This document shows positions 8,027 through 37,706 of a DNA stretch of 43,614 nt, one piece after another. Position numbers and translations under genes: made by a program. The notes under the pieces were generated by a model. That model searched no databases. It had not been told where the DNA came from and worked only from the letters and a program-made list of their open reading frames with translations. The DNA comes from a virus. Positions within the stretch are counted from its first letter, which is position 1, and the number at the start of each line of letters is the position of its first letter. The stretch covers positions 1-43,614 of the IMG/VR virus record IMGVR_UViG_3300031951_009498, one strand, 5' to 3'.

Positions 8027-8028
8027 AA

Positions 8029-17500: not shown

Positions 17501-20500
17501 GCAAATCAACCAAATGAAACAGGATAAAATGCCTGCTAAACAATGGTTAGATAAATTAAGAGGGGAAGAAGCTAGGTGGACAGGTCTTTCTGATTGGTTA
17601 AGTCAACAAGAGGGTAGCTTAACTAAAGAAGAAATTAAAAATTGGCTACAAGATAACCAAATAGAAATAAATGAGATAGTAAAGGGTAAATCAGAAGGGC
17701 TAACAAAGGAGCAAAATGAAAGATTAAAAATTCTTGAAAAATTAGATGCTGAATATCCAACTGGAGCAATGGAGGATATTGAATCAGGTTCTTATGATGA
17801 GTATTTAACTTTATTAAATATTAGAGATAAAAGCACATCAAAAGATTTGATTGATTTACAAAAAAAATCAGAAAAACTTGCAAGAACAGCACAGCAAAGG
17901 GGGGATCAAAAACTTGCAGATAAGTATTGGGAAGATAGTCATAGATATACTAGTAGACATGAAGTGTTAGAGTTAAGTATGGAAGGGGAAGGCGGCATAC
18001 TTGCTCCAACCAAGTTTTCTATGTATCAATTAGAAGGTGATTCTAAAGATTATACAGAAATATTAATTACTAAGCCAAATAAAGAAATCGAAGGTGTCGG
18101 AAGGGTTGATTATTATAAGTCATTGGGATATACCGAAGATAAATTTTCAAAATTAAATGATGATGAAAAAAAGAGAATTATTGACGAATGGCGTGAGGTA
18201 GGCAAATATGAGTCATTAGCTCAAAAATTATTTAATGATAATTATGTAAAATTAAGACAAAGCGAGCAAGGAAAGGTTAGAGAAGAATTTAAAAAACTTG
18301 ATGATCAAAGAGAGTATAAGAAATTTGGTCATTTTGATGAAGCTAATATTTTAGTTCATTTAAGAATGAATACTAGAATTGATGACAAAAAGAATAAAAT
18401 TTTGTTTTTAGAAGAAGTTCAAAGTGATTGGGGACAGGAAGCTAGAAAATTGGGTACTGATGAAGAATTGCCTGAATTAGCAAAAAAATTAAAAGATTTA
18501 GGTTATATAATAAAAGATAATAAGGTTTATGCCGAAAGTGATGCTTATATAGACGATAAGCCATTGTTAATTAGAAAATATCCTAATGATTTAGTCGGGG
18601 AAGCTAGAATACTTGCCTCAAGATATGAAAACACTGTTCCATCTGCTCCATTTATATCAAATACAAACGATTGGACAAAATTAGGCTTAAAAGTTGCATT
18701 AAAAGAAGCTGTTAACATAGGGGCAGATAAAATTTCATGGACAACAGGCGCACAGCAAGTAGAAAGGTATGAGGATAATATTAGAAAACAAGTTGATAAA
18801 ATAGAGTCAAAAAGATACGATGCGGTAGATAGAGTTGAGATAGTTGCTTATAAAAATGGTCAAGTTGTTTTTGAAGGATTGCTTCCTACTGACAATTCAA
18901 AAGTTTATATATCTGGAAAAGATGTTGGATTGGAAGATATAGTTGGTAAAGACATGGCTCAAAAAATAAAAACAGGCGATAATGATCAAATTTTTGAGGG
19001 AGATTCTTTAACTATTGGCGGAAGCGGAATGAAAGGATTTTATGGATCACCATCTGAAAATAATTTAGGCATTATTGGGAATCTTGCTAAAAAATTATTT
19101 AAACAAGAGCCTTCAATCATTAAATTAAATTTGGTAGACGAGGGTAAGGAAAATAGCGATATTAATAGATACAGAAGAATGCTTTCCGATTTTAATAATG
19201 AGTTGGATTTTTTAGGTGAAAAAGAACAAGGTGTATATGAAAATGAAAGAGGAGAAAGATATTCTATAAATAAAGCAGAGGTTTTAGATAATAAAAAAGC
19301 AGTTGAAAACAAAATTCAATCTATGGAAAAACGATTGAAAGCTAAAAAAGCATCAATTCAATATTCTATAGATGTTACTCCTGAATTAAAAGCCCAAGTA
19401 GAAGTAGGCTTGCCTTTATTTATGGCTAATCCAAGTGGTGCTGATATATTAGGTTTTTCTTTTGCAAACAGAATGTATTTGAATGGAGAAAAATTAAACC
19501 CAAATACAATTATTCACGAAGCTGGGCATATTTGGACAGAATGGGTTAAGAATAATGATTATAATGTTTATGCAAAAGGTATGGAATTGGTAGAGAAATC
19601 ACCATATCTACAAAAAGCTAAAAACAGCAAGTTCTATCAAGAGCAAGCTGCTAAATTAGGCACAGAGCAAGAGAAAGAAGAATACTTTAAGCACGAAGCC
19701 TTAGCTATGGCTATTGGTGATAAAGGTGCGCAATTTGTTGTAGAGTCTAAGAAAGATGCTTTTAAAGATTGGTTAAAAACTTTATGGAATAAAATAAAGA
19801 GCTTAACTGGATTTAAAGATTTAACTGAAGAACAATTCCAAAATTTAACATTTGAAGAATTCTCTAAAATGGCTGTAAAAGAAATTTTAGGAGTTGAGAA
19901 TGATTTGGATAAGTTCCAAGCAGTCAGATCTATGAAGAAAAAGAAAGACTTTGTAAAAGGCAAAGTAAGAGGAGAAGCTAATAAGAGAGCAATAGATGAT
20001 TTTGAGGTGGATGATATGGTTAAATTAATTAAAGCAGATTATGATTTACAAACACTTAAAAATATAAGAGATGCCATACAAAAGCGAAGCGCAGAGGAAG
20101 TACTTCCAAGCCAACCGAGAAAAACTAGAGAAGCAAGGGGTGAACGTAAACGAGTGGAACCAAGAGTCGAAGGGGATGAAGCTACCGGAGAAGGTGAAGA
20201 TGCACAGCCCGAAGATGTTAAGGAAGGCGACAAGAAAGGGTGGAATGGGGCGATAACAATTGCTGCAAATGAAGATAGAAGATTATTATTAGGTTTACCA
20301 GAATACGAGTCAGAAAAGCAATCATTTGAAAAGTGGACTGACGAAGCTATTCGTATGCTTAAAAAAGGTTATAATGTAGACAAATTGCTTGATAGAATGC
20401 AGAAAGGCGAAGTGCCAACACCTGTTGAAAATCAAATCAGAAAAATCTATGTTGCTAAACTAAAGCAAGATTATCTTGCTAATCCAAGCGCAGAATTAGA

Positions 20501-23135
20501 AAAAAAGCTCATTAAATACACTCAATTAAATGACATAGCTAACTCTCAAGCGGGTAGAGCATTAAGGTCTTTGGCAGATGTTGCAGATCCAAGAGAAACT
20601 CTTGCTGATTTTGTAATATCTAAAATGGAAGCTAATAATGTTGACGAGCTTACTGAAAAACAAAGAGAGCAAGTTAAAAAGCAATATGAAGAAGTAAAGA
20701 AAAAGGAAGAAGATGTAGAGGCTAAATTAGAAATTAATGATGAATTAAATACACAATTGCTTGCTGAAAATGCATTTAAGGAGGAAAAAGCAAAGAGGAA
20801 GCCTTATCAAAAAACAAAAGACTATAAGGCAGATAGAAAATCTATCATAGAGTCTATTAAGCAAAAATGGAAAGATAAAGACAAGCCTAGTGATGTTTTA
20901 ATGGCATTGCCGTTCCCTGTTCCAACAAAAAAAGCCCAACAGCTAGTTGCAATCGCACCTGATGTAAGCAAATTGATGTCGTCTTACATAGAAGAAGGTG
21001 TTGATGATTTGAAAGAAATCGTAAGTCGCATTTATGTTGATTTAAGAAATGAAATTGATGGGTTGTCTGAAAAAGATATATTTGATGTAATAGCAGGTAG
21101 GTATAAAAAAGAAAAGCCATTGTTAAGTCAATTGCAATTTAAAAAAGCTGAATTAAAAAAAGAAGCTGAATTAATTGCTAAAATTGAGGATATAATGGCT
21201 GGCAATATGCCAACTAGTGAAAAAGCTAAAATTGAACAAAATCAAAGAATTACTCAGTTAAGAAATGAATTAAGAGATTTAAAGAAAGAAGTTGGTTTTT
21301 ACGATTTATCAAAAATCAATTCTTTAAAAGAAAAAAATCTTGAAAAAATCAAAGAACTTGATGAAAAAATTCAAAAAGGAGATTTTGAAAAAGCAATTAG
21401 GACTCCATCGTTTTTAGAAAATCCTGAATTTAAAAAGAAGTATCCTAAAGAATATGATGCGTATCTTCAGTCTGTTAAAGAATTAACTGATAAAAAACAT
21501 GAATTTGAAGTTTCTTTAGCTAAAGACGAATTAAAAGGGTTAACAATTAGAGAAAAATTAATAAAAAAATGGTGGCCTGAATTTAAAAATACTTTATCTG
21601 CTATTAAAGCCACTTTGGATAACTCATTTATATTCATACAACTTGGCCCTGCAATATGGTCTAATCCATTATTGTTACCAAAAGTTTTAAATGAGCAAAG
21701 AAAAGTTATTTTTAATGAAGGTAAGTTTAGAAAAGAAATTGTTCAGATTTTTGAAAACAAAGAACTTGCAAATTTAATTGAAGTTTCTGGTTTAGATATT
21801 TTAGATCCACAAACTTTAAGAGAAACTTTAAGAGAAGAACAATTAGGTGGTACAGACTTTTTGGAAAGAAGTGTAGAAATTAAAGGAAAAAAATATTCTT
21901 TAGGTACAATTATAAAAGCTCCTTTTGAAAGAATTGCAATTGCTGCTGGTAACTACGTAAGATTAAAGTTGTTTTTAGAAAGCGTAAGTCATTTAGAAGC
22001 GCAAGGTAAAACTATCGAAACTCATGAAAAAGAATTTAAAGACGCTGCAAGGGTGGCAAATGAAATGACTTCTAGAGGCGAATTATCTGAAGAATTTAAA
22101 ACAGGTTGGTTAAAAACTTTATCATCATTAACTTGGGCCCCAAAGATGATTAGTTCTACATTGAATCTACTAGGTATAGGTGATGCGTATAATAAAGTAT
22201 TAGGAAGAAAAGGTTATTATGCTAGTTTATCTCCTGAATTAAAAAAAGTGGCTATTGGCAAAATGGCTGTTGCGATTACTGTTCCATATTTAGCTATGGC
22301 AGCTTTAGCATTAGATGATGATTTTGAAGTTGATTATGATCCAAGAAGTGTAACATTTGGTCAAATTAAACAAATATCAACAGGTAAATCTTGGAATCCA
22401 TATGGCAGATTTACTTCCGTTGTAAGATATTTAATACTTATGATGCTTGGTGTAAGGTATATAGGGGATGAAAAAATAAGAGCTGACTTTAAGACAGAAA
22501 CTTTTAAATTTTTTAGAGGTAAAATGACACCTGCATATGGTCTTGGTCTTGATTTAGTTTTTAGAGAAGGATTTGATGGTCAACCATTAAGTTTCAATGA
22601 TGTTGCAAAAGATGCTGTTACTCCTTTAGCATTAAAAGACTTAAAAACATATATGGAAGATGATGGTACATGGGGATTGATTACACAAGGCTTGCCAGCT
22701 ATAACTGGTATTAAGGTTGGGACTGAAAAGCAATTCAATCAAGCTAAGCAACCATTAGAAGATGTTATTAAGAAGCATGCTAGAACAGACGATACATATT
22801 ATTCTTTTGAATTAAAAGATCCAAATACTAAAGAAATAGCAACCAAAGAGCAATTTGATAAGTTTGTAAAAGAAAGAGATAGATTAATTGCAGAAAAGTT
22901 GACAGACCTTTATAATGGGTATGTTATCACAGATTCACCAAATCCGGTTCCTTTTGTATCATTAGAAGCAAATGAAGCTAGTAAGCAAATCTCAACAGCA
23001 AAAACAGAATCAACTAAAGAAGCTAAAGAGATAGTGTTTGGCAAAAAGAAAACATCGCCTGCACAAAAATTAGCCGAAGCTAAAAAACAAGCCTCTAAAA
23101 GAATACTCGAAATGAGAAAAATGTTTAGAAGATAG
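14502..23135 (+). CDS. 2877-residue polyvalent internal virion protein with metallopeptidase motif
   Basis: This single frame fills 8.6 kb. Residues 12-34 repeat a motif (KIPTPNEVFG, KVPTPSEVFG). Residues about 569-625 repeat AVIMPEENV-like units three times. Residues about 1270-1640 match a widespread polyvalent-protein domain: ILFLEEVQSDW, VPSAPF, KISWTTGAQQVERY, GGSGMKGFYG and a terminal VGLPLFM. HEAGH at 1672-1676 is a zincin metallopeptidase motif. The last 900 residues are helical, with a transmembrane-like stretch (about 2587-2604) and the FGQIKQISTGKSWNPYGRF and FFRGKMTPAYG segments of phage ejection-type C-termini. It is probably packed in the head and injected with DNA, where its domains act on the host. 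An overlapping frame, 20071-20256, lies in its hydrophilic linker. Confidence 0.8.
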   Translation: MALEQFDENQPRKIPTPNEVFGSKKVPTPSEVFGDDLKKKESTRLGFSVTPLPSQDKFQEGLAMAQSPIASAVKKDTQKDENLAAGIYNTLVGSVKRLAGGAAYAGEVFLGGRPEATITRLASAENTRQKTEQFVEKARSEKASKQYEESMGKYDFTPKPGGGLLSGVDADDFKALAFTAPSQALDMVLGSLTYGSSFVAQSISDAANEINQSDSGKKLNEAQKATYIFTQAAVQAALEKVSLDLILKNTGLGKAAKQKIANEITDEFVKKGIKATAKDIEEAAFKKASTFANQAKRVGIKAVAGVATEGTTEGTQTAAQEGIKLLTNKIVDKDVFNEEDIIANLGKNIINASIGGAAFGSVAGGGVGVFQNTNKAIRDEVAKAGKKYFVNDTEVSEAEFNAATGNKKVVSDITKIQDEISKQVEEGNITPQEAQAANITAQQYAEIAGKIPTTVSPQDKYRIIGGIEQREALNARKQQAYDELTTLDPVFRKEKQDQIDLIQAKIDETNDYLEGIVSGKKPEYKEKRGMYFKVDSEGNETPINKETYDLAKSIREEDDRKAKESVDTAPAVIMPEENVAPEVVEPTRPAVIMPEENVPAETTVISPEQQGKGAAVIMPEANVAPEVAETVVTEEFAPTEVKPEVKSKLESFKTKFAPQPKEVSVSGVTAAQKRVNRQEAAKIAPTDARGFALSWMNQSPDALDWNSIKDLFGGRRARLNVKEVTPEEIAKRDYVAEKEGDEKVGKNGLVKGIDEVVGDIWNNLPEGLEDRITTRDIKDELEALISEYPTRADAARALIQHEGGLKGKSMEEQQLAFEERKGIEEGEEMAPVQLEGGFVPFEEDMDIEGMEEPPFAVQEATTEEVAAMQDIVKDYIDDGTTSLSEIKKAIAKELGYNTKKLRQTIEDAYNEYTTTAEAAVTEVKSGLLGRVGNAFGKMFGKEAQKPFIAKDGKALDAKAKNVAETGGRVSFQATLPNGQNVTAKPVDASIVNGFYSPLELQINQMKQDKMPAKQWLDKLRGEEARWTGLSDWLSQQEGSLTKEEIKNWLQDNQIEINEIVKGKSEGLTKEQNERLKILEKLDAEYPTGAMEDIESGSYDEYLTLLNIRDKSTSKDLIDLQKKSEKLARTAQQRGDQKLADKYWEDSHRYTSRHEVLELSMEGEGGILAPTKFSMYQLEGDSKDYTEILITKPNKEIEGVGRVDYYKSLGYTEDKFSKLNDDEKKRIIDEWREVGKYESLAQKLFNDNYVKLRQSEQGKVREEFKKLDDQREYKKFGHFDEANILVHLRMNTRIDDKKNKILFLEEVQSDWGQEARKLGTDEELPELAKKLKDLGYIIKDNKVYAESDAYIDDKPLLIRKYPNDLVGEARILASRYENTVPSAPFISNTNDWTKLGLKVALKEAVNIGADKISWTTGAQQVERYEDNIRKQVDKIESKRYDAVDRVEIVAYKNGQVVFEGLLPTDNSKVYISGKDVGLEDIVGKDMAQKIKTGDNDQIFEGDSLTIGGSGMKGFYGSPSENNLGIIGNLAKKLFKQEPSIIKLNLVDEGKENSDINRYRRMLSDFNNELDFLGEKEQGVYENERGERYSINKAEVLDNKKAVENKIQSMEKRLKAKKASIQYSIDVTPELKAQVEVGLPLFMANPSGADILGFSFANRMYLNGEKLNPNTIIHEAGHIWTEWVKNNDYNVYAKGMELVEKSPYLQKAKNSKFYQEQAAKLGTEQEKEEYFKHEALAMAIGDKGAQFVVESKKDAFKDWLKTLWNKIKSLTGFKDLTEEQFQNLTFEEFSKMAVKEILGVENDLDKFQAVRSMKKKKDFVKGKVRGEANKRAIDDFEVDDMVKLIKADYDLQTLKNIRDAIQKRSAEEVLPSQPRKTREARGERKRVEPRVEGDEATGEGEDAQPEDVKEGDKKGWNGAITIAANEDRRLLLGLPEYESEKQSFEKWTDEAIRMLKKGYNVDKLLDRMQKGEVPTPVENQIRKIYVAKLKQDYLANPSAELEKKLIKYTQLNDIANSQAGRALRSLADVADPRETLADFVISKMEANNVDELTEKQREQVKKQYEEVKKKEEDVEAKLEINDELNTQLLAENAFKEEKAKRKPYQKTKDYKADRKSIIESIKQKWKDKDKPSDVLMALPFPVPTKKAQQLVAIAPDVSKLMSSYIEEGVDDLKEIVSRIYVDLRNEIDGLSEKDIFDVIAGRYKKEKPLLSQLQFKKAELKKEAELIAKIEDIMAGNMPTSEKAKIEQNQRITQLRNELRDLKKEVGFYDLSKINSLKEKNLEKIKELDEKIQKGDFEKAIRTPSFLENPEFKKKYPKEYDAYLQSVKELTDKKHEFEVSLAKDELKGLTIREKLIKKWWPEFKNTLSAIKATLDNSFIFIQLGPAIWSNPLLLPKVLNEQRKVIFNEGKFRKEIVQIFENKELANLIEVSGLDILDPQTLRETLREEQLGGTDFLERSVEIKGKKYSLGTIIKAPFERIAIAAGNYVRLKLFLESVSHLEAQGKTIETHEKEFKDAARVANEMTSRGELSEEFKTGWLKTLSSLTWAPKMISSTLNLLGIGDAYNKVLGRKGYYASLSPELKKVAIGKMAVAITVPYLAMAALALDDDFEVDYDPRSVTFGQIKQISTGKSWNPYGRFTSVVRYLILMMLGVRYIGDEKIRADFKTETFKFFRGKMTPAYGLGLDLVFREGFDGQPLSFNDVAKDAVTPLALKDLKTYMEDDGTWGLITQGLPAITGIKVGTEKQFNQAKQPLEDVIKKHARTDDTYYSFELKDPNTKEIATKEQFDKFVKERDRLIAEKLTDLYNGYVITDSPNPVPFVSLEANEASKQISTAKTESTKEAKEIVFGKKKTSPAQKLAEAKKQASKRILEMRKMFRR
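20071..20256 (+). CDS. nested small phage protein in another frame of the giant gene
   Basis: A 61-residue frame, MPYKSEAQRKYFQANREK onward, with QGVNVNEWNQESKGMKLPEKV in the middle and a basic C-terminus. The order KSxAQRxYFxANxxKL..QGVxVxEWxxxSKGxKLP is one I recognise from small free-standing proteins in many phages, so this is unlikely to be a random shadow. It lies in the +1 frame relative to the giant gene, over residues about 1857-1918, where the giant product is a charged Glu/Arg/Gly linker. Nothing stops the giant frame on either side. It has its own ATG, preceded by AAGAG. Expression is not proven. Confidence 0.6.
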   Translation: MPYKSEAQRKYFQANREKLEKQGVNVNEWNQESKGMKLPEKVKMHSPKMLRKATRKGGMGR

Positions 23136-23173: not shown

Positions 23174-23485
23174 ATGGAAACATTAGAAGAATTAAGACAA
23201 AGGGTAGCCCTATATGAAGAAAATGGGGCTGCCAAGTTGTTTTACGCATTAAATAGAAAAGCAAACGAGATGGCTGATTTGCTTAACAAAACCAACTTAT
23301 CACACTTGCTTTTAGAAGATCCAAAAGATAAAACTTTTGAAAGATTAAAGGCAATCTGGAACGACAGCTCCACCTTGTCAACAGCTATTAAAGATTTAGG
23401 CATATCTGCCGGTGTTACCGGTGATGAGCAAAAAGACGTAGCTAAAAAGCCATTTGTGGAAAGTATAGCTGAATCTAGAAGATAA
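23174..23485 (+). CDS. hypothetical 103-residue protein upstream of the terminase
   Basis: A mostly helical protein (METLEELRQRVALYEENGAAKL, then YALNRKANEMADLLNKTNLSHLLL) with a second helix set ending KKPFVESIAESRR. It overlaps the terminase ATG by one base (TAATG), in the place where a small terminase subunit or a terminase partner often lies. However, it has no recognisable HTH and is shorter than most TerS proteins. I leave it hypothetical; a packaging role is only suggested by coupling. Confidence 0.6.
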   Translation: METLEELRQRVALYEENGAAKLFYALNRKANEMADLLNKTNLSHLLLEDPKDKTFERLKAIWNDSSTLSTAIKDLGISAGVTGDEQKDVAKKPFVESIAESRR

Positions 23486-25533
23486 TGCCAGAAACAATTA
23501 ATATATATGGCGTCAATATCATTTTGCCGGAGTGTGATTCTGTAATTGAAGATTGGGGCGTTACTGATCCAAAAGAACAATATTGGAGAAGAAAAGAATT
23601 GCCCAATTTATTTAATTCAGTTGAATACGATAAAGAAGGTAATGCCTTATTAGACGCAGAACAAGCAGCTTTTGCTACAAGAGAGGTAGAGAAGTGCAAG
23701 AAAGGCTTTTGGTTTTACAATAACGGAACGCCTACTTTTGTAACAGGCAAGCACTATTTCTATTTGCAATGGTGGAAATTAGAGGACGATATTTATGGTG
23801 ATTTTAGGGATGCAGATAGAAGATATTTTCTGTATCTAGATCATTGGGAAAAAACCCCTTGGTGCTTAGGTGTAGTTAGAGGTAAAAAAAGACGTGAGGG
23901 TGCTACATCTCAAGCCACGTCTAACATTGTTTACGAATGTATATTTTATAAGAATAGCTTTTGCGGTTTAACCAGCAAGACGCAGATAGATGCTAAAGCT
24001 GCTTTTACCAACATGATTTCATTTGGTTACAGGCAGCTACCAGTATTTTTAAAGCCAAAACAACTTAACAACAAAGACAGTGTAAGCGAATTGGTATTTG
24101 CCCATAAGTCAGTTGAAATAAGAGGCACAAAAGGAAATGCAATAGATAATGATACGGGACATAGGTCTAGAATCGATTATCGTGCGCCTTCCTTGAACTC
24201 TTATGACTCAGGACGTCTTAGTCGTGGTTTATTTGATGAGGGCGGAAAATGGGCAAAAGAAACGCCATTCTCGACATTTTTATCAATTGTAAGTAAAACA
24301 TTGGTAAAGGGTGCTAAGAGGGTAGGTTTTATTGAATGTCCATCTACGTCCAATAGTATGACTAGCGGAGGAGAGGAATTTAAGATAGTATGGGATGCGG
24401 CAGATCATTTAAAATATCCCAAAACGCCTAACCGATTGGTTAAGTACTTTTCACCAGCTTACGATGGATATCTTGGTTTTATTGATAAATATGGGATGAG
24501 TGTAATCGGTGAACCAACACAGGAGCAATACGATTATTTAGTTGAGAACTATGTAGGCGCAGGCGATCTTGATGAAAGCGATATAAAGCTAGGGGCAAAA
24601 GAATATTTGTTATCAAAGCGCAAGCAATTAGAAGCGGTACAATTAGAGGAGGAGATAAGGATGAATCCTTTTGATGAAAGGGAAATGTTCATGCTTAGAA
24701 ACACCAATTGCCACTTTGATGCGGTATTGCTTAATGACTTGTACGAAATAGCAAAGATAAACGAGAAAGAAGTATTAGAGTATGGCAATTGGACTTGGAA
24801 AGATGGCGTGCCTTTTACAGAAGCAGTATGGGAAACAACTAGCAAAGAAGCAGCAAGATGGACAAGGGCTAAGAACTTTAAAATAACAGAAGGCGAAAAG
24901 TATACCCGAAGGGGCAACTTGTTTGTACCTAAAAATCCGGTGCAGTTTATAATGGGATGCGATCCATTCCAGAACTCAGTGGTTGAACATGGAGAAGGAT
25001 CTAAAGCTACGAGCTTGGTTTTAAACAGATATGATACAGGTATAAACGATCCTGTTTATAATATGATGTTTGTTTCAAAGTATCACGCAAGACCAAAGAT
25101 GGTAGAATTATTTCACATGGATATGGTTTTACAATGCTTTGCTTACGGAGGTCAAATGCTTATAGAGGCTAAAATGGATGGCGGATTAAGAAAGTTTTTT
25201 GTAGATAACTATTGCGAAGCGTTCTTGATAAGATTGCCAGAGAAGTCAAACTACGGGGTAGATCCAAATGCTGACAATAAAGCCCTTATGGTAAACTTAT
25301 GGGAACAGTACATATTAACGCATGGCAAGGAAGGTAAAATAATATACCCAGAACTAATTGATGATAAATATGATGGCTTGATAAAGTTCAATGTAAATGA
25401 AACAGAGGTGTCTGACTTAGTAATGGGTGGTGGATGGACTTTATTTGCAGACTATTACAAAAGAGCAAACTTTAAAAAACCAGAAGCAAAATATAAATTA
25501 ACTGATTTCTTCCCTCAAACCAGAATAGCATAA
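23485..25533 (+). CDS. terL: large terminase subunit
   Basis: A 682-residue packaging motor with ATPase and nuclease domains. The ATPase loop is VVRGKKRREGATSQ (130-143), a deviant Walker A of the KRREGATS type. The Walker B is LSRGLFDEGGK, with D251 and E252. The RNase H-fold nuclease shows acidic residues in IMGCDPFQ (D493), MLIEAKMDGG (E561) and the C-terminal TDFFP (D674). It pumps DNA into the prohead through the portal. It is coupled at both ends by TAATG overlaps, to the preceding 103-residue gene and to the first glycosyltransferase, so the terminase and the glycan genes share an operon. Confidence 0.92.
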   Translation: MPETINIYGVNIILPECDSVIEDWGVTDPKEQYWRRKELPNLFNSVEYDKEGNALLDAEQAAFATREVEKCKKGFWFYNNGTPTFVTGKHYFYLQWWKLEDDIYGDFRDADRRYFLYLDHWEKTPWCLGVVRGKKRREGATSQATSNIVYECIFYKNSFCGLTSKTQIDAKAAFTNMISFGYRQLPVFLKPKQLNNKDSVSELVFAHKSVEIRGTKGNAIDNDTGHRSRIDYRAPSLNSYDSGRLSRGLFDEGGKWAKETPFSTFLSIVSKTLVKGAKRVGFIECPSTSNSMTSGGEEFKIVWDAADHLKYPKTPNRLVKYFSPAYDGYLGFIDKYGMSVIGEPTQEQYDYLVENYVGAGDLDESDIKLGAKEYLLSKRKQLEAVQLEEEIRMNPFDEREMFMLRNTNCHFDAVLLNDLYEIAKINEKEVLEYGNWTWKDGVPFTEAVWETTSKEAARWTRAKNFKITEGEKYTRRGNLFVPKNPVQFIMGCDPFQNSVVEHGEGSKATSLVLNRYDTGINDPVYNMMFVSKYHARPKMVELFHMDMVLQCFAYGGQMLIEAKMDGGLRKFFVDNYCEAFLIRLPEKSNYGVDPNADNKALMVNLWEQYILTHGKEGKIIYPELIDDKYDGLIKFNVNETEVSDLVMGGGWTLFADYYKRANFKKPEAKYKLTDFFPQTRIA

Positions 25534-26153
25534 TGTCTTGGACTAACTTTTTTACTAAAATATTTGTAATTAATTTACCAGAAAGAACTGATAGATTATT
25601 AGAAATAGCAGAAGAACTAGACAAATGGCAAATACCATACGAACTTGTTAATGCCGTAAAGCACGAAAATGGGGCAGAAGGATTAAGGATTACAGTAGAA
25701 AAGATTTTTAGAGAAGCCATAGCAAAAAACTGGGAGTCTGTATTGATATTTGAGGATGATGCTGTATTTGTAGATTCATGCGGCAACCCTAATGATACCA
25801 TGAATGAGGTAGTAAAGCAATTACCAAAAAATTGGGATATTCTTTATTTAGGTGCGCAATGTACCACAGGATTCAAATTAAGAACGTCGCCAAATCTATT
25901 ATTAGTAGAAAATGCTTACGCAACTCACGCTTGGGCTATATCTTTGCATGGCATGAAAGAAATACTGATGGCAGTCTTGGAAGCTCCAATAGATAATTGT
26001 ATTGTAGCCAAGATTCAATCACATGGCACAACTTATATTACTTACCCGTTATTAGCCACACAGCGTCCCGGCATATCGGATATTGGGAATACGTACATAA
26101 ATTGGCAACCATTTATAGAAAATAGATATTATCAAAAACTAGGAGATTTATGA
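25533..26153 (+). CDS. GT25-family glycosyltransferase
   Basis: A 206-residue protein starting with the GT25 hallmark IFVINLPERTDRL (residues 10-22), followed by the acidic IFEDDAVF motif (73-80) that would bind the metal and nucleotide sugar. Segments LYLGAQC and YATHAWAISLHG complete the GT25 layout. GT25 enzymes include LPS galactosyltransferases and procollagen galactosyltransferases. The start codon overlaps the terL stop (TAATG). It is the first of eight glycan-related genes and likely adds a hexose; donor and acceptor are unknown. Confidence 0.82.
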   Translation: MSWTNFFTKIFVINLPERTDRLLEIAEELDKWQIPYELVNAVKHENGAEGLRITVEKIFREAIAKNWESVLIFEDDAVFVDSCGNPNDTMNEVVKQLPKNWDILYLGAQCTTGFKLRTSPNLLLVENAYATHAWAISLHGMKEILMAVLEAPIDNCIVAKIQSHGTTYITYPLLATQRPGISDIGNTYINWQPFIENRYYQKLGDL

Positions 26154-26845
26154 GAGAATTATGTATTTGCATCCCAACTTGGAACAGAGTAGAGATGACA
26201 TTAAAAAGTTTTAGTAAGGTTTATGACGATCCTCGTGTTAAAAATATAATTATTGTTGATGACATGAGTGATTTACCTGTTTATTACGAACTTAAACGTG
26301 AATGTGATAAATTAAAAAAAGTAAAGTTATATCGTAATTTAAGCAATAGGGATTGTTATGCAAACAAATATGTAGCTGTAAGCCTATCGACAACAGACTA
26401 TTGTATCATATTAGATTCTGATAATCAAATTGATACGTTGTATTTAGATAAGATTTTTGAACAAGAATGGGATAAGGATACAGTGTTAGCCCCAGATTGG
26501 GCTATGCCAATGTTCAATTATACAGACTATGCAAATTTGATTGTAACCAAAGAAAATCTACCAGAGTACATAGACAAGCCAATGTTTGAAACTTGCCTCA
26601 ATTGCATGAACTATTTCGTAAATAAACATTCTTATTGCGAAGTATGGGATGCGGAAATAGATCCGGTAACAAGCGATAGCCTATATCAGAATTACAATTG
26701 GCTAATGTCAGGTAGATGTATACACATAGTTGATGGGTTAAGATACGACCATCTTGTGCATGATGAATCGCATTACATAAACAATGTCCAAAGAACAGGG
26801 GATTTTAGAGAAATATTAATAGAAAAAATTAGGAAATTAAATTAA
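26150..26845 (+). CDS. GT-A fold (GT2-like) glycosyltransferase
   Basis: A 231-residue protein with GT-A features. The first strand is LCICIPTWNRVEMTLKS, then NIIIVDDMSD (UDP/GDP-sugar-binding acidic pair), and the metal-binding DxD-type motif CIILDSDNQ (about 86-94). The C-terminal half is rich in Trp, Tyr and Cys. It starts with an ATGA overlap with the GT25 gene, so the genes are co-translated. The sugar and acceptor cannot be read from the sequence. Confidence 0.75.
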   Translation: MRELCICIPTWNRVEMTLKSFSKVYDDPRVKNIIIVDDMSDLPVYYELKRECDKLKKVKLYRNLSNRDCYANKYVAVSLSTTDYCIILDSDNQIDTLYLDKIFEQEWDKDTVLAPDWAMPMFNYTDYANLIVTKENLPEYIDKPMFETCLNCMNYFVNKHSYCEVWDAEIDPVTSDSLYQNYNWLMSGRCIHIVDGLRYDHLVHDESHYINNVQRTGDFREILIEKIRKLN

Positions 26846-26864
26846 ATTAATTAACTTTATTCCT

Positions 26865-27602
26865 ATGGTAACTTTTAATAACGCGGGGAGAATGGGCAAT
26901 TTTCTTTTTGAATGCTCTGCTGCAATGGCTTATGCCCTAGAGCATGACTTAGAATTTACAGTGCCTAATGAAACAAGCAATGCCAAATGGAATCCAATAT
27001 ATTGCCCTCACTTAATTGATGATAGATATAATCCATATTTAGAAAAAATACAATTGTTTGAATCAAGGCATAGTTACGAGCCTTTGCCATACGATCCATC
27101 TTGGAAAGATAAGAATATAATTATTGAAGGGTACAGACAAACTGCAAAATACTTTGATAAGTATCGTAACGAAATATTGTACTTGTTTAATTTCCCGTAT
27201 AAAAAATCAGATGGCTATGTTTCCATCCATGTAAGACGTGGTGATTATGTAACATTAAGAGATAAGCATCCGGAAGTAACAATAGAGTGGTATGAGAAAG
27301 CGATGAGTATGTTTCCTGATTACAAGTTTAAATTCTTTTCTGATGATATTGCTTGGTGTATGGAAGCGTTCAAGCACAGAGATGATTGTGAATATTCTGG
27401 TAACACAGACGAGCAGTCTGACCTTGTAGAAATGAGCTGGTGTGAGCATCAAATATGTTCGCCATCAACATTTTCTTGGTGGGGTGCGTATTTAAATAAA
27501 AACGAAGATAAGAAAGTAATCTTTCCGCAATTTTGGTTTAGTGAGGGGTGGTGCGGATTAGATACAAGCGAGATTGTAAAACCTGAATGGATAAAACTAT
27601 GA
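26865..27602 (+). CDS. GT11-family alpha-1,2-fucosyltransferase-like protein
   Basis: A 245-residue protein. The start FNNAGRMGNFLFECSAAMAYA is the GT11 N-terminal donor-site pattern (GRLGNQLFQ in classical members). The core HVRRGDYV (about 122-129) is the HxRRxDY motif that binds GDP-sugar. SPSTFSWWGAYL (about 205-216) is the family's SxFSWW motif. GT11 enzymes normally use GDP-L-fucose to make alpha-1,2 linkages. Because a GDP-mannose 3,5-epimerase follows two genes later, GDP-L-galactose is a possible donor here. The stop overlaps the next start (ATGA). Confidence 0.88.
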   Translation: MVTFNNAGRMGNFLFECSAAMAYALEHDLEFTVPNETSNAKWNPIYCPHLIDDRYNPYLEKIQLFESRHSYEPLPYDPSWKDKNIIIEGYRQTAKYFDKYRNEILYLFNFPYKKSDGYVSIHVRRGDYVTLRDKHPEVTIEWYEKAMSMFPDYKFKFFSDDIAWCMEAFKHRDDCEYSGNTDEQSDLVEMSWCEHQICSPSTFSWWGAYLNKNEDKKVIFPQFWFSEGWCGLDTSEIVKPEWIKL

Positions 27603-28186
27603 GTGATTTAATTATGTTTGATTTTCAGCATTTCTATCAAAGAATTGCAAAAGAATTACCTGACGATTGCAAAGTTTGCGAAGTTGGTGTAGCTAATGGA
27701 GATAGTGCTTTATATTTAGCTCAAGAGTTAAATAGGCTTGGCAAAAAGTTTAAATTGTATATGGTTGACAATATGGATTATGGTCAGTACTTACAAATGA
27801 AAACTATCTATCAGAATATAATTAAAAGCGGTTTGGGAGAATTCATAGAAGTTGTTCCTTACGCAAGTTTAGAAGCAGCAGAATTATTTAATGATGGGTA
27901 TTTAGATTTTTGTTATATTGACAGCAGTCATACATACGAACAAACAAAATTAGAAATACGAGCTTGGTATCCAAAGGTAAAAGATGAGTGCATTTTAGCA
28001 GGACATGATTACAATGCGCCTGAAGTTCGTCAAGCAGTAGATGAAGTAGTCCCTAAAGTATTTGTAAGAGATGATATGAATGGACAATCATTTAATCCAG
28101 AGGATATTTTAGAATCCGAAGATACTTTGAATAATTGGGGTTTATGGTGGTTTAGAAAACAATGGTACTTAAAACTAAATAAATAA
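27599..28186 (+). CDS. class I SAM-dependent methyltransferase
   Basis: A 195-residue protein from the ATG at 27599, which overlaps the previous stop as ATGA; an in-frame ATG at 27587 would add only four residues. Motif I is KVCEVGVANGDSALYL (the SAM-binding glycine loop), then LYMVDNM and YLDFCYIDSSHTYE (motif IV region), and ILAGHDYN. This is the layout of Methyltransf_24-type enzymes encoded near sugar genes. It probably O-methylates a sugar or lipid-linked glycan of the cassette. The acceptor is unknown. Confidence 0.8.
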   Translation: MSDLIMFDFQHFYQRIAKELPDDCKVCEVGVANGDSALYLAQELNRLGKKFKLYMVDNMDYGQYLQMKTIYQNIIKSGLGEFIEVVPYASLEAAELFNDGYLDFCYIDSSHTYEQTKLEIRAWYPKVKDECILAGHDYNAPEVRQAVDEVVPKVFVRDDMNGQSFNPEDILESEDTLNNWGLWWFRKQWYLKLNK

Positions 28187-28187
28187 T

Positions 28188-29201
28188 ATGAAAACAGCTT
28201 GTGTATTAGGCGGTCATGGAATGATCGGGATGCAATTAGTAAAAAGATTAAAAAGCGAAGGCTATTGGGTAAGATCGGTTGACGTTAAGCAACCTGAATT
28301 TTCTAAATCGGAAGCAGATCAATCAATGATTTTGGATTTAAGAGATGCGTCAAGTGTGTCAAAAGCATTATGGGGGCCAAATCAAACCGAGTGGCATGAT
28401 CCAGAGAAATCATTTGATGAGGTTTATCAACTTGCGGCAGATATGGGCGGTGCCTTATATGTATTTACGGGAGTAAATGATGCAGATATTATTTATGATT
28501 CAACAATGATAAACTTGAATGTTGCTAAAAAAGCAGCAGAATTCCGAGTGAAGAAATTGTTCTTTTCATCAAGTGCATGCGCATATAGCGAAAGACTGCA
28601 AGAGTCATTAGATAGTGCGTCATTGAGAGAAGATTCGGCTTGGGATGGCAAACCTGATAGTGTGTATGGTATTGAAAAATTATTATCAGAACAAGTGTAC
28701 GATTCTTTTAGAAGAAATAAAGAATTAGATATAAGGATTGGTAGATTCCATAACATATTTTCTCCAGAATGTACTTATAAAGGCGGTAGAGAAAAAGCAC
28801 CAGCAGCCGTATGCAGAAAAGTGGCAGAAGCTCAAGATGGCGGAGAGATTGAAATATTTGGTGATGGATTGCAACAGCGTAGCTTTTTATACATTGATGA
28901 GTGCTTAGATGGTGTTAGGGCGTTGATGGAGTCTGACTATGTTTACCCAGTAAATATTGGTTCAGACGAAATGATATCAATAAACGATTTAGCTAAAATG
29001 GTTATTAAAATTTCGGGTAAAACTTTAACAATTAAAAATGTCGAGTCAAACGCATTAGGCGTGAGAGGCAGAAATTCTAACAACGAATTGGTTGAAAATG
29101 TAACAGGATGGCGTCCAACGAAACCACTTGAAGAAGGTATGGTTAAATTATATAATTGGATTGAATTAGAAACAAATAAACATAAAAGCAAAAGTATATG
29201 A
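28188..29201 (+). CDS. GDP-mannose 3,5-epimerase-like NAD-dependent epimerase
   Basis: A 337-residue extended-SDR enzyme. The NAD-binding glycine motif GGHGMIG lies at 8-14. QLAADMGG, SSACAYSE and the Y160-GIE-K164 pair follow, then GRFHNIFSPECTYKGGREKAPAAVCRK. The likely active-site residues C131, Y160, K164 and K203 correspond, with one constant offset of 14, to C145, Y174, K178 and K217 of plant GDP-mannose 3,5-epimerase. This enzyme turns GDP-mannose into GDP-L-galactose (and GDP-L-gulose). Its presence in a phage glycan cassette with a GT11 suggests supply of an unusual L-hexose. It overlaps the FkbM-like gene as ATGA. Confidence 0.88.
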   Translation: MKTACVLGGHGMIGMQLVKRLKSEGYWVRSVDVKQPEFSKSEADQSMILDLRDASSVSKALWGPNQTEWHDPEKSFDEVYQLAADMGGALYVFTGVNDADIIYDSTMINLNVAKKAAEFRVKKLFFSSSACAYSERLQESLDSASLREDSAWDGKPDSVYGIEKLLSEQVYDSFRRNKELDIRIGRFHNIFSPECTYKGGREKAPAAVCRKVAEAQDGGEIEIFGDGLQQRSFLYIDECLDGVRALMESDYVYPVNIGSDEMISINDLAKMVIKISGKTLTIKNVESNALGVRGRNSNNELVENVTGWRPTKPLEEGMVKLYNWIELETNKHKSKSI

Positions 29202-29833
29202 TGATATCATTTGACTATCTAGTCAATAAACATAAGCTAGACATTAAAGGCGTATTGCATCTTGGCGCATCAACAGGGCAAGAAAGAAAAGAATATGATA
29301 ATTATTGCAAGGGTGATGTTTTGTGGGTTGAAGCAATACCATCTGTTTATTTAGAATTGGTAAAAAACATAGAACCTTATAAAAACCAAAGAGCTTTTAA
29401 CGCTTGTCTAAGTAATGTAGACAATGAAGAAGTGGTTTTTAATGTGTCAAATAATGAAAGTCAAAGCTCATCAATGCTTGAGCTTGGTACTCACCTTTTA
29501 ATCCATCCAGAAGTGCATTACATAGAACAGATAACAATGAAAACTAAAAGAGTTGATACTCTGTTTGAGGGTTATAGTTTTAAAAATATAAACTTTCTTA
29601 ACGTAGATCTTCAAGGTGCAGAACATTTAGCAATTGAAGGAATGGGCGATTTGATTAAGAATATAGATTATGCATTGTTAGAAATCAATATGAAAGAAAC
29701 TTACAAAGGATGTATGCTTATTGAGGATTTAGATTACTTTATGCTGCAGCGTGGATTTGAAAGAGTTGAAACGGGCGATTGGGTTGCTGAAACATGGACT
29801 GACGCACTTTATGTAAGAAAATTTAATATATGA
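29198..29833 (+). CDS. FkbM-family methyltransferase
   Basis: A 211-residue protein with FkbM features: the opening GVLHLGASTGQERKEYDNY (SAM-binding loop), VLWVEAIPSVY, the TKRVDTLF motif, and the INFLNVDLQGAEHLAIEGM block with the family D-x-Q/E-G-x-E pattern. FkbM-type enzymes O-methylate sugars in polysaccharides and natural products. It is coupled to its neighbours by ATGA overlaps on both sides. It makes two methyltransferases in one cassette, so the glycan product may carry more than one O-methyl group. Confidence 0.87.
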   Translation: MMISFDYLVNKHKLDIKGVLHLGASTGQERKEYDNYCKGDVLWVEAIPSVYLELVKNIEPYKNQRAFNACLSNVDNEEVVFNVSNNESQSSSMLELGTHLLIHPEVHYIEQITMKTKRVDTLFEGYSFKNINFLNVDLQGAEHLAIEGMGDLIKNIDYALLEINMKETYKGCMLIEDLDYFMLQRGFERVETGDWVAETWTDALYVRKFNI

Positions 29834-30651
29834 TAGATGTTCCAAAGGAATTTATGCCTACCATAAATACAGTTTATCCATTTGAAAATTATACAATTTT
29901 TGAAGAATGGGTATCAAAAAGATTTATACCTGATTTTAATGGGCGTGATTATTTAAGAATTAATTGGACGTCATATCATGTGAATAACAATTACGGCAAC
30001 GATCCGATAGCTAGACGGAAGTTACAAGGCTATGTGGATTCTTTGCCTAGAGATAAAACATATTGGACGATATGCCAATACGATGATGGGGTTTTAGTTG
30101 ACTTTAAAGATTTGGATGTTTTGGTATTCAATATGAGTAAAAAAGAAGGCATTGAAATACCATTGCTTTGTATGCCACATAGTTATCAATGGGATGGCAT
30201 TAAAAATATTTATGCATCTTTTATAGGGACAAACACTCATCCAATTAGAGAAAATGTATTTAATATTCAAAATCCAGATTATTACATATCCAAAGAGCAA
30301 CATGATGTAAATAGGTTTTGTGATGTCATTAGTCATTCTATATTTGGCTTATGTCCTAGAGGCTATGGTTTAAATAGCTTTAGGATTGCCGAGTGCCTTC
30401 AGTATGAAACTATACCGGTTTACATAAGCGATGAGTTTGTTAATTGCTTTAACGCTAATTTTGAAGATTATGGGGTAATCATAGAAGCCAAAGATGCCCA
30501 TAGAATAGTGCCAATATTAAACAGCGTATCAGATATAGAGATAGTTGAAAAGCAATTAAAGATTAAAGAAATATATAATAAGTATTACACTTATCAAGGA
30601 GCATTACTCAATATCTTAAATAAATTGGATGAAGATAGCAGTAATTCATAA
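29830..30651 (+). CDS. exostosin-like (GT47-type) glycosyltransferase
   Basis: A 273-residue GT-B-like protein. The C-terminal signature IFGLCPRGYGLNSFRIAECL (168-187), followed by ETIPVYISDEF, is the exostosin-family donor-binding pattern (FxLCPRGxGxxSxRxxEALxxGCIPVIxSD). The N-terminal half is less conserved and contains CMPHSYQWDG. Family members transfer a range of sugars. It overlaps the FkbM gene by four bases and the next gene by 23 bases. Confidence 0.78.
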   Translation: MIDVPKEFMPTINTVYPFENYTIFEEWVSKRFIPDFNGRDYLRINWTSYHVNNNYGNDPIARRKLQGYVDSLPRDKTYWTICQYDDGVLVDFKDLDVLVFNMSKKEGIEIPLLCMPHSYQWDGIKNIYASFIGTNTHPIRENVFNIQNPDYYISKEQHDVNRFCDVISHSIFGLCPRGYGLNSFRIAECLQYETIPVYISDEFVNCFNANFEDYGVIIEAKDAHRIVPILNSVSDIEIVEKQLKIKEIYNKYYTYQGALLNILNKLDEDSSNS

Positions 30652-31174
30652 TTTCGATGCCGGTGATCGTTTTGATAGATTAATGAATGAATTTCAAGAA
30701 CAGGGTATTAAAGAGTTTTCTTTTTTCCCTGCTGTTTATGATTCCCATTCTGTTAAAAGAGCAATTAATTTAGCCCATAAGCAATGCGTACAGTATGCAA
30801 AAGATGCGCATTTGCCTGAAATATGCATTATGGAAGATGACGTGCATTTCACTAATCCGGATAGTTTTTCATATTTTTTAAGGAATAAGCCATCAGATTT
30901 TGATATATACCTAAGTGGTATATACATAGGGGAGATACAAAAAGACCAAACGGTACATAATTTTACCGGTTTCCATTGTTACATAGTTAATAAAAAGTTC
31001 TACGATATTTACCTAAATACGCCCTTAGATGAACACATAGATCGTGCATTAGGAGGGTTGGGGAAATATGTAGTTTGTGATCCTTTTATTGCCATACAAT
31101 ACAATGGATTCTCGTATAATACAAAAATGGACATGAATTATGATAGCCTACTTGAAGGAAGAAAATTATATTAA
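30629..31174 (+). CDS. GT25-like glycosyltransferase (second copy)
   Basis: A 181-residue protein with a GT-A/GT25-like layout. A short start (KIAVIHNFDAGDRFDRLMNEF) corresponds to the xINLxxRxxR segment but lacks its NLPERxDR form. The acidic motif ICIMEDDVHF (about 66-75) and FTGFHCYIVNKKFYDIYL follow. It is shorter than the first GT25 gene. It closes the eight-gene cassette and overlaps the exostosin-like gene by 23 bases. A strongly AT-rich promoter region follows. Confidence 0.68.
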   Translation: MKIAVIHNFDAGDRFDRLMNEFQEQGIKEFSFFPAVYDSHSVKRAINLAHKQCVQYAKDAHLPEICIMEDDVHFTNPDSFSYFLRNKPSDFDIYLSGIYIGEIQKDQTVHNFTGFHCYIVNKKFYDIYLNTPLDEHIDRALGGLGKYVVCDPFIAIQYNGFSYNTKMDMNYDSLLEGRKLY

Positions 31175-31194
31175 ATTAATTAATATAATATAAT

Positions 31195-31226
31195 TTGTTT
31201 TTTTTGTGTACTTTTAATTAATTTTG
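31195..31226 (+). promoter_or_regulatory. late promoter for portal operon
   Basis: TTG at 31195-31197, a 21-base spacer, then TAATTTTG at 31219-31226 match the Bacteroidota -33/-7 pair. The spacing equals that of the promoter before 37721, and TTTTAATTAATTTTG recurs before 34146. The ATG at 31251 lies 24 bases downstream. Confidence 0.6.
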
Positions 31227-31250: not shown

Positions 31251-33596
31251 ATGCAACAAGCAACGAATACCTATCCAAATCAACAAATTGATCCTCGTGA
31301 AAAAGGATATGATTGGATTTTACAATATTGCAAAGCCGCTTGGGGAGATTCAAGAGGATATGTGCCTAATAACATGTTAAATTTTGGGCAATCCAAAATG
31401 AATGAAATTAGAGAGTATGCATTAGGAAGGCAAAGCACTACCAAATATAAGAAACTTTTAAATGTTGATGAGCAACAAGATAAAACTTGGTTGAATATAG
31501 ATTGGACTCCGCCATCATTTTTAACAAAGTTTAGAGAGATAGCTATTTCAAAATTAGTTCAAAGAAGATATGATATCAATGCTTTTGCAGTAGATCCAAT
31601 TGCTAAGAGTGAAGAAGATAATTACTTTACTGAAATGAAGGTAAAGATATTAATGAGAGAAGCGGCACAAAAAGCAGGTAATCAAGAATTGCTTAACAGT
31701 CCTGTATTAGCAGCGCAACCGGGCGAAGCGCAAGACTTAGAGCAATTAAAGATGGAAGAACAATTCGGATACAAGCACGTCATGTCTATGGAAGCAGAGA
31801 TGGCTGCATCTTTATCTATGTATCAAAATAATTTTGAAGAAAAAAGAAAAAGAACGATAGAAAATCTTTTTGATTTTGGGATGGGTGGTTATACAGAATA
31901 CATTGATGAAAATGGTCAAGTAAAATTAAGAGAGATTAACCCTGAAAACATGGTGTTATCTTATTGCGCTAAAAACGATTTTTCTGATTTAGTTCATTGG
32001 GGAGAAGTAAGAGAAATGTATGTCGGAGATTTAGCTCCTTACTTTACGGTAGAGCAGATGAATCAAATTGTACAAAGCGTAGCAGGAAGATTTGGTAATC
32101 CTTCTAATTTTATGTACGGAACAGATTATTCTAAATATTGGAACAGATTTAAAGTTCTTGTATTAGATTTTGAATGTTTATCTTGGAATGATTATACTTA
32201 TAAAGAAGAAGTAGATAATAGAGGTAATGTAAGATTTGGTAAAACTAAATATCAGGACGCAGCCAAACTTGCAGTAACCAAAGAAGGTGTTATTGAAAAA
32301 ATGGGAACTATCCCTAACATGGTTGATTTTTCTATGAAAGGTCAAGCAGAACCTGTATTTATGCCTGTTACTCGTAAAGTTGTTTACAAGTGTAAATGGC
32401 TTATCCAAACAGACTATATGTACGATTGGGGTATGTCAGAAAATCAAATTAGAAAGCCATCAAGTTGGTGGGATACTAAATTGAATATTCAGTTATACTC
32501 TTGGAATTTTTATAAGATGCGCTTTGCAGGCATTACAGAAAGACTTATCCCACTTGAAGATAAGGCAAGTCTTACTTGGTTTAAGCTGCAAAATATGTCA
32601 AATAAGTTGATACCATATTTAATTAATATTGACTTAAATGCATTAGAAGGAGTTGACTTTGGTGGAGGTGGAAGCAAAATGGACCCGACTAAGGTTATGG
32701 ATTTTATTTTTTCAAACTTTGTTGTACCATACAGATCAACAGATCTTTTAAGCCAAAACCCTAACTATAAGCCTGTTTCAATTGAAGCGTCAGGGCAATT
32801 AGCAGTATTTGGTCAGTTGTATCAAGAGTTACAGAATACTTTAGACATGATGCGTCAAGTATCAGGTTTAAATGAATTAACAGACGGATCTACTCCAAAT
32901 GCTAAAACATTAGTACCAGTTGCAAACGCAGCTATGGAAAGCACTAATAATGCTTTATACTTATTAAGTTTTGCAGACAAGCAATTGATACAAGAATTAG
33001 CTGACGCTATTGTGAGCAAAGTTCAAATTGCAGTAAAACTAGGCAAGGTGGAAGGTTATGCAAGAGCATTAGGTGATGAAACTGTTAAATTCTTTAAAAT
33101 TAATCCTGATATTTCAATTCACGAGTTTGGCATCTTTATTCAAGATGTGCCTTCTGACTTTGAAAGACAGCAGTTAATACAAGAATTAAATATACGAGAT
33201 AGTCAAGGATTAATAGAGCCAGAAGATAAGATTTTGGTAATGAGTACCAAGAATTTAAAGATGGCATCTATGATTTTAGCTTATAGAATTAAGAAGCGCA
33301 GAGAGAAATTGCAAGAATTTGAATTGCAAAAAATTCAACAAGCATCTCAAGGTAATGCTATGGCAACTCAAGTGGCAGAACAAGAGAAGCGCGTTACATT
33401 GGAAACTCAATTACAAGTCGATATTGCTCGTATAAATGCTGAAAAGCAATGGGATTACATAATTCAAATGGGCAAGAAGGATAAAGATATTCAAGAGGCT
33501 GAAATTCAAAAAGAAGCAAAAGTTATTGCTCAAAGAATTCAAGCAGATGCAAGAATAGTAGTAAGTGAAAAGAAACAAATACAAACACCAAAATAA
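31251..33596 (+). CDS. portal protein
   Basis: A 781-residue protein in portal position after the terminase block. The N-terminal region contains KGYDWILQYCKAAWGDSRGYVPNNMLNFGQ and a conserved-looking SFLTKFREIAISKLVQRRYDI. The middle has SRPWxxTK-type mixed strands. The stem-like helix is around IEASGQLAVFGQLYQELQNTLDMMRQVSGLNELTDGSTPN. The C-terminal 100 residues are a charged helix (KKRREKLQEFELQKIQQ, VAEQEKRVTLETQLQVDIARINAEKQW) that fits a portal barrel. Size and layout recall crAss-like portals. It forms the packaging and exit vertex. Identification rests on motifs and order. Confidence 0.78.
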   Translation: MQQATNTYPNQQIDPREKGYDWILQYCKAAWGDSRGYVPNNMLNFGQSKMNEIREYALGRQSTTKYKKLLNVDEQQDKTWLNIDWTPPSFLTKFREIAISKLVQRRYDINAFAVDPIAKSEEDNYFTEMKVKILMREAAQKAGNQELLNSPVLAAQPGEAQDLEQLKMEEQFGYKHVMSMEAEMAASLSMYQNNFEEKRKRTIENLFDFGMGGYTEYIDENGQVKLREINPENMVLSYCAKNDFSDLVHWGEVREMYVGDLAPYFTVEQMNQIVQSVAGRFGNPSNFMYGTDYSKYWNRFKVLVLDFECLSWNDYTYKEEVDNRGNVRFGKTKYQDAAKLAVTKEGVIEKMGTIPNMVDFSMKGQAEPVFMPVTRKVVYKCKWLIQTDYMYDWGMSENQIRKPSSWWDTKLNIQLYSWNFYKMRFAGITERLIPLEDKASLTWFKLQNMSNKLIPYLINIDLNALEGVDFGGGGSKMDPTKVMDFIFSNFVVPYRSTDLLSQNPNYKPVSIEASGQLAVFGQLYQELQNTLDMMRQVSGLNELTDGSTPNAKTLVPVANAAMESTNNALYLLSFADKQLIQELADAIVSKVQIAVKLGKVEGYARALGDETVKFFKINPDISIHEFGIFIQDVPSDFERQQLIQELNIRDSQGLIEPEDKILVMSTKNLKMASMILAYRIKKRREKLQEFELQKIQQASQGNAMATQVAEQEKRVTLETQLQVDIARINAEKQWDYIIQMGKKDKDIQEAEIQKEAKVIAQRIQADARIVVSEKKQIQTPK

Positions 33597-37646: not shown

Positions 37647-37676
37647 GCTCCATTAAAAAAAATAATGGGGCTTTTT
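37647..37676 (+). terminator. intrinsic terminator after the capsid-associated gene
   Basis: GCTCCATT (37647-37654) pairs with AATGGGGC (37664-37671) with one G-T wobble. The loop is A-rich and a T-run follows at 37672-37676. It lies 26 bases after the stop at 37621. Confidence 0.85.
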
Positions 37677-37706
37677 GTTTTATATTACTATTTTTTGGTA
37701 GTTTTG
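37675..37706 (+). promoter_or_regulatory. late promoter before the 37721 operon
   Basis: TTG (37675-37677), a 21-base spacer and TAGTTTTG (37699-37706) match the -33/-7 pair, with the same spacing as the portal promoter. It starts within the T-run of the terminator above, so one unit ends where the next begins. Confidence 0.6.

Follow-up and report, generated by a model that had tools for sequence, protein, structure and literature searches.

The 43,614-base virus record IMGVR_UViG_3300031951_009498 (the window in what follows; its full-length relatives measure 67-70 kb) carries, between the genes for the terminase large subunit (terL) and the portal protein, a cassette of eight intact same-strand genes that fills positions 25533-31174 and encodes five glycosyltransferases, a GDP-mannose 3,5-epimerase (GME) and two methyltransferases. 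Comparison with related sequences indicates that the cassette, tied to the portal and capsid genes and not to the terminase, is fixed in a single phage lineage, and its best explanation, which we hold with moderate confidence, is that of a virion-decoration pathway. An earlier, sequence-only reading of the window had delimited the eight tightly spaced open reading frames (ORFs), the first overlapping the terL stop, and had named their products, including the GME; the ORF coordinates, Pfam and a PDB profile search bear this out, and PHROGs confirms the two genes between which it placed the cassette. The genes are the following:

23485-25533, plus strand: terL, left neighbour (PHROG 6681, E=7.6e-72); replaced in some cassette carriers, according to the identity table and approximately unbiased (AU) tests
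25533-26153, plus strand: gene A, GT25 glycosyltransferase (PF01755; EDD motif invariant; AlphaFold2 (AF2) confidence score pLDDT 87, Foldseek, PDB profile search)
26150-26845, plus strand: gene B, GT2 glycosyltransferase (PF00535, E=1.8e-10)
26865-27602, plus strand: gene C, GT11 (fucosyltransferase-like) glycosyltransferase (PF01531, E=1.3e-21; PHROG 2644; HVRRGD motif)
27587-28186, plus strand: gene D, class I methyltransferase of the Methyltransf_24 family (PF13578, E=1.1e-18), weakly similar to rhamnosyl O-methyltransferases (weak NF045824 match)
28188-29201, plus strand: gene E, GME (PDB 2c59, E=5e-108; active-site residues conserved)
29198-29833, plus strand: gene F, FkbM-type O-methyltransferase (PF05050, E=4.9e-15; TIGR01444 above cut-off)
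29830-30651, plus strand: gene G, GT47 exostosin-like glycosyltransferase (PF03016, E=1.1e-10)
30629-31174, plus strand: gene H, short GT25-fold glycosyltransferase (PF01755, 23.7 bits; MEDD motif invariant; AF2 pLDDT 89.5, Foldseek)
31251-33596, plus strand: portal protein, right neighbour (PHROG 6547, E=6.7e-66), co-inherited with the cassette

Genes A-G score above the curated Pfam cut-offs (GT25, GT2, GT11, Methyltransf_24, NAD-epimerase, FkbM and GT47), while gene H falls just under that for GT25 (23.7 vs 24 bits) and belongs to the family by fold only. Gene A overlaps the stop of terL, which ends at 25533, by 1 nt, and the following junctions measure -4 (A/B), +19 (B/C), -16 (C/D), +1 (D/E), -4 (E/F), -4 (F/G), -23 (G/H) and +76 nt (H/portal).

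A terL scan of IMG/VR returned 51 loci, and the cassette was found in the same order at every locus that reads through the region and whose terL is at least 65% identical; the 1-nt overlap between terL and gene A is kept at 30 of 33 loci. Among close relatives, the ratio of nonsynonymous to synonymous substitution rates (dN/dS) is mostly 0.03-0.2 for all eight genes, which points to purifying selection. The cassette is not a chance array, because tens of related contigs share these genes in the same order, the overlap being kept and dN/dS low; dN/dS and the intact ORFs also rule out a decaying import. The sequence-only reading would have been contradicted by loss of the genes in close relatives together with decayed remnants in this phage, and the survey of related phages, finding the cassette conserved and no decayed remnants, removes this objection. 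In the cassette-less relatives L034-L038 and L041, whose terL is 50-55% identical, the portal gene follows terL directly or after one homing endonuclease, and in the isolates elemoF and phi18:3 the two genes are 8 and 3 bp apart, with no cassette. Terminase and portal of the window are distant kin, at about 29% and lower, of those of the Flavobacterium elemo and Cellulophaga phi18:3/phi38:1 phages, and the uncultivated phages that bear the cassette are probably phages of Bacteroidota.

The description of the cassette as coupled to the terminase proved misleading, since terL is exchanged while the cassette stays with the portal. In a portal-based IMG/VR scan, which uses neither terL nor cassette sequence, all 44 relatives whose upstream DNA is readable over more than 900 bp (portal identity 51-98%) have gene H directly before the portal gene. 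Scans with genes A and H yielded loci (L131/L249, L136/L259, L258 and L252) that keep the cassette together with a portal of 51-62% and a major capsid protein (MCP) of 60-76% identity, their terL being only 23-43% identical; in L131/L258 terL is at about 25%, yet the portal is at 51-58% and the MCP at 60-69%. The converse is seen in L034/L037/L041, where terL is 53-55% and the portal 34-36% identical and the cassette is absent. Cassette carriers group as one clade on the portal tree (support 98/99). On terL, AU tests reject the portal-defined pair L016+L136 (p=0.0015) and, more strongly, the portal-defined set of eight (p=2.5e-41), and the claim of linkage to the portal and not to terL rests on these two narrower tests; a single clade of all cassette carriers is not rejected (p=0.09). 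A cassette tied to the terminase is thus ruled out by terL replacement with cassette and portal kept. The divergent terL of L131, L136, L252 and L258 was swapped in exactly at the terL/cassette border, with cassette, portal and MCP retained.

Within the cassette, genes A, B, C, G and H form a constant core wherever the portal-based scan reads the whole stretch, and D, E and F vary. Single genes are exchanged as alleles: in the L001 group gene D is 69% identical and its neighbours about 90%, and gene E occurs among otherwise close phages in alleles of the 91% and 61% type, with the GME residues kept in both. Extra genes in the cassette gaps are GIY-YIG and HNH homing endonucleases, read from the sequence, and further FkbM-like methyltransferases. 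In L001 homing endonucleases lie at 13382-14086 and 18461-18982; such inserts, in cassette gaps or in the terL-portal gap, are also present in L004, L005, L013, L015, L019, L025, L026, L030, L034, L041 and L044, some of which are cassette-less. L044, where no GME match was found, has an extra cassette ORF (4079-4789) whose product, judged by eye, looks like a 2-oxoglutarate-dependent oxygenase. Two more distant phages hold related gene sets elsewhere, between primase and virion genes in L260 and just ahead of a terL gene in L146. A genome scan identified no bacterial donor of gene A; its matches, at only 23-35%, were dispersed over different phyla. Upstream of terL, window positions 14502-23135 encode a 2877-aa protein without a Pfam match above cut-off, and a similarly huge ORF is present in G028-G030; in G028 (72 kb) the first ~2.7 kb return as an inverted duplicate at the other end (153-2831, 69597-72275), either a terminal inverted repeat or an assembly artefact.

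In the proposed pathway the glycosyltransferases A, B, C, G and H, all five cytosolic, would assemble a short oligosaccharide and D and F would cap it by O-methylation; still in the cytosol, the chain would be joined to virion proteins that the neighbouring capsid genes encode. In the sub-clade of the window it would probably also be attached to a Ser/Thr-rich collagen-like fibre. GT11 is a fucosyltransferase family and, because L-fucose is 6-deoxy-L-galactose, gene C could plausibly use GDP-L-galactose, with A, B, G and H supplying the remaining sugars. The donor for C, the sugar order, the product and the acceptor virion protein are what we infer. By hydropathy, none of the eight cassette proteins has a membrane segment (max KD19 1.28), as for cytosolic, non-membrane transferases acting on virion proteins.

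Gene E, as judged from its sequence, is securely a GME: it matches the GME structure 2c59 at E=5.2e-108 vs 1e-28 for the next family. Residues C131, Y160, K164 and K203 are invariant in 18 homologues and align with SSAC, YGLEK and GGREKAP of the Arabidopsis enzyme; we take them to be the Cys/Lys acid-base pair and the YxxxK of the GME active site. The predicted product is GDP-L-galactose/GDP-L-gulose. Genes A and H both keep their EDD motifs, and GT25 folds are confidently predicted for them. The nearest structures to gene A are, in order, the catalytic domain of the human collagen galactosyltransferase COLGALT1, Mimivirus R655 and bacterial beta-1,4-galactosyltransferases, and the best Foldseek match of gene H is again R655 (9e-10). 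The modelled likeness of gene A to COLGALT1 is no more than suggestive. A collagen-like fibre is encoded in the window, and in relatives a second type of glycosyltransferase gene lies nearby:

38774-42802, plus strand: tail fibre, candidate glycan acceptor (PF01391, E=1.3e-30; PF13884, S74 chaperone domain)
L055 15021-17894 and G001 55021-57894, minus strand: TibC-type fusion gene of relatives, outside the window

The fibre contains eight (Gly-Ser/Thr-Ser/Thr)n collagen-like runs, 91 triplets with 158 Ser/Thr, whose X/Y positions are 87% Ser or Thr, with no Pro. G001, G003, G004 and G006, the full-length close relatives studied in detail, have, after the fibre region, a minus-strand gene whose product, 957 aa long in G001, fuses an N-terminal GT4 domain to a C-terminal TibC/Aah protein O-heptosyltransferase domain. 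TIGR04414 scores 218-264 bits (cut-off 200) in eight close relatives (G001-G007 and G013), the domain matches the TibC structure 4rap at E=3.5e-52 and, taking the residues from PMC4358343, the four iron-finger cysteines are matched in G001 and G003 and the catalytic Asp in all four proteins checked. Only about 0.8 kb of the window lies beyond the fibre, and the present phage is predicted to have the TibC-type gene as well. Among the IMG/VR clusters of relatives of this enzyme (loci L284-L362), a Ser/Thr-rich collagen-like ORF is found in the fetched flank in 40/55, rising to 34/41 and 29/31 where at least 3 kb and at least 5 kb, respectively, are available on both sides, at a median distance of 1.4 kb; in 57 control viral loci, unmatched for genome region and, like all sequences compared, non-independent draws, a collagen-like ORF occurs once. 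The pairing of fibre and TibC-type enzyme is hence a candidate for a widespread phage fibre O-glycosylation system.

The same pairing recurs in unrelated phages, namely Microcystis phage Mel-JY01 and the 735-kb phage LR756501. In Mel-JY01 (L281) the TibC-type domain is located in a protein annotated as FkbM methyltransferase (635-3052), beside an 805-aa ORF (4750-8430) with 134 Gly-X-Y triplets that are 86% Ser/Thr; over this repeat stretch the record annotates mostly an ORF on the opposite strand. In the uncultured huge phages LR756501.1 (735 kb) and LR756504.1 (636 kb), gene A and the TibC-type enzyme both have homologues, as does gene G in LR756501. A two-tier programme can be envisaged, in which the TibC-type fusion O-glycosylates the collagen-like arms of the fibre and the cassette furnishes capsid or fibre proteins with an O-methylated oligosaccharide that contains L-galactose, with D, E and F swapped as if under recognition pressure; we put this forward tentatively, as a possibility with the chances rather against it.

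The cassette and the portal gene are separated by a gap with the following element:

31194-31226, plus strand: Bacteroidota-type promoter motif TTTG-N21-TAATTTTG, between cassette and portal

The gap between H and portal is 72-78 bp in cassette carriers and holds this motif, which is conserved in those carriers whose terL is 80-98% identical and whose gap is free of endonuclease inserts, and absent from the shorter terL-portal gaps of the cassette-less kin examined. Over the whole window the motif has 10 matches vs 4.3 expected, a further one lying in the intergenic gap at 37674-37706; a scan for sigma70-type promoters gave matches at chance level. Cassette and portal are thus probably transcribed from separate starts, and the insertion of the cassette, itself on the upstream transcript, appears to have brought a means of restarting capsid-gene transcription. 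The tight joining of the eight genes described in the sequence-only reading stands, with the one correction that a conserved promoter motif lies between them and the portal.

Several observations weigh against virion decoration. A promoter between H and portal makes shared timing a weaker argument, and co-inheritance of cassette and portal could follow from adjacency alone. With few GT25 structures to compare, the ranking of COLGALT1 as nearest to gene A may come from sampling, and lysine is absent from the collagen-like repeats of the phage. Loci L404-L406 keep C with no E match, hence E is not the only possible donor source for C. Neither a collagen-like protein nor a TibC-type gene was found in the cassette carriers G028, G029 and G030 (62-73 kb), which rules out the fibre as an acceptor common to all carriers; in these three phages the glycan must be attached to something else, and perhaps in the window phage too. 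As the cassette also occurs without fibre and TibC-type gene, its own acceptor is an unproven candidate.

Alternatively, the target might be a glycan on the host cell (LPS, capsule or S-layer), altered late in infection so that progeny do not re-adsorb or superinfecting phages are shut out. Genes E and C have their closest kin in cyanophages, with GT25-annotated genes beside C, and published readings assign those clusters to modification of the cell wall or O-antigen (PMC9602691, PMC7824862); moreover, the tailoring genes D, E and F vary among lineages like serotype genes. However, the cassette showed no gene for a membrane protein, a flippase, a polymerase or a bactoprenol-linked transferase, no integrase was found in any record of the window's lineage, and a slowly displayed surface change would be of little use to a lytic phage. 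This explanation, which we regard as rather unlikely, also gives no reason to expect that the cassette is linked to the portal lineage. Lysogenic conversion by a Gtr-type serotype cluster, in which a temperate phage brings a GtrA flippase and membrane-bound GtrB/GtrC, finds no supporting genes, as membrane segments are lacking in the eight genes and an integrase in the lineage. The earlier proposal of decoration of either the virion or the host surface is therefore better supported in its first half, by the cytosolic enzymes, the portal/capsid linkage and the O-glycosyltransferase beside fibres in relatives, while its exclusion half is weak.

Transfer of sugars to phage DNA bases, a hypermodification evading restriction as in T4, is very improbable. 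PHROGs does call GT25-like phage genes 'glucosyltransferase' and places gene D in a 'DNA methyltransferase' group, but the thymidylate-synthase/dCMP-hydroxymethylase family (PF00303) was found in 0/22 records, full-length ones included, which speaks against T4-type DNA glucosylation, other hypermodification pathways not having been searched exhaustively; furthermore, the cassette genes are of sugar-type glycosyltransferase and FkbM families and remote from the replication genes in the lineage. Taken together, the missing membrane, flippase, integrase and thymidylate-synthase-family genes disfavour, as far as gene content tells, both host-surface conversion and T4-type DNA glucosylation. The enzymes are soluble and have at best a candidate acceptor, so the cassette might also yield a sugar, free or nucleotide-linked, whose role is to counter a host defence or to feed metabolism, leaving virion and envelope undecorated; five glycosyltransferases held as an invariant core imply, however, a multi-step glycan on an acceptor, and make this improbable.

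The nearest described systems are cyanophage glycan clusters, the closest kin of the cassette, and mycobacteriophage virion glycosylation; the terL-portal cassette is a new form of such systems. In the Kyanoviridae clusters (S-SCSM1, SynMITS9220M01 and S-SM2) the GME homologue is about 48-51% and the GT11 homologue about 30-33% identical; in SynMITS9220M01 the GME and GT11 genes overlap, in S-SM2 a GT25-annotated gene lies next to GT11, and S-SCSM1 has GME, GT11 and methyltransferases in one cluster. The acceptor is unproven in both systems. The setting is different, since those clusters lie amid auxiliary metabolic genes of T4-like myoviruses of about 190-230 kb, whereas the cassette is compact, lies between terL and portal in a ~67-70 kb phage, and has its terL and portal kin in Flavobacterium and Cellulophaga podoviruses. 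Glycosylation of mycobacteriophage capsids and tail tubes is cited as a precedent in passages of PMC12619734 and PMC12363180; as described there, Che8, Corndog and Myrna encode glycosyltransferases thought to decorate their own virion proteins, with one or two transferases each, while the cassette, known from its genes alone, has five plus its own nucleotide-sugar enzyme and O-methyltransferases. Giant viruses (PBCV-1, and Mimivirus including L230/R655) likewise have clusters for capsid and fibril glycans with virus-encoded glycosyltransferases, nucleotide-sugar enzymes and sugar methyltransferases, and GT25 enzymes acting on collagen-like virion proteins, as in collagen glucosylation by L230 (PMC9614988); they are, however, eukaryotic viruses, and L230 targets hydroxylysine, absent from the phage repeats. 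The enzyme of the relatives, encoded downstream of the collagen-like fibres, resembles the TibC/Aah autotransporter O-heptosyltransferases (TIGR04414) in its above-cut-off score, iron-finger cysteines and catalytic Asp, and differs in its fusion to an N-terminal GT4 (FkbM in Mel-JY01) and in its predicted acceptor, a collagen-like phage fibre instead of an autotransporter.

To our knowledge, the common reading of glycan clusters in phages is that they serve to modify the host surface, and the decorated target has been proven for very few phages. This lineage offers a clean test case, with a compact cassette fixed to a capsid lineage and, in relatives, a known type of O-glycosyltransferase beside its would-be fibre substrates. 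The literature search returned no paper on the terL-portal cassette or on phage TibC-type enzymes, and the pairing of fibre and TibC-type enzyme may be more novel than the cassette itself; if confirmed, it would be a widespread phage system with no description in the literature searched. If virion decoration is correct, glycosylated particles would be a normal trait of an environmental phage group, with bearing on adsorption, stability and particle recognition.

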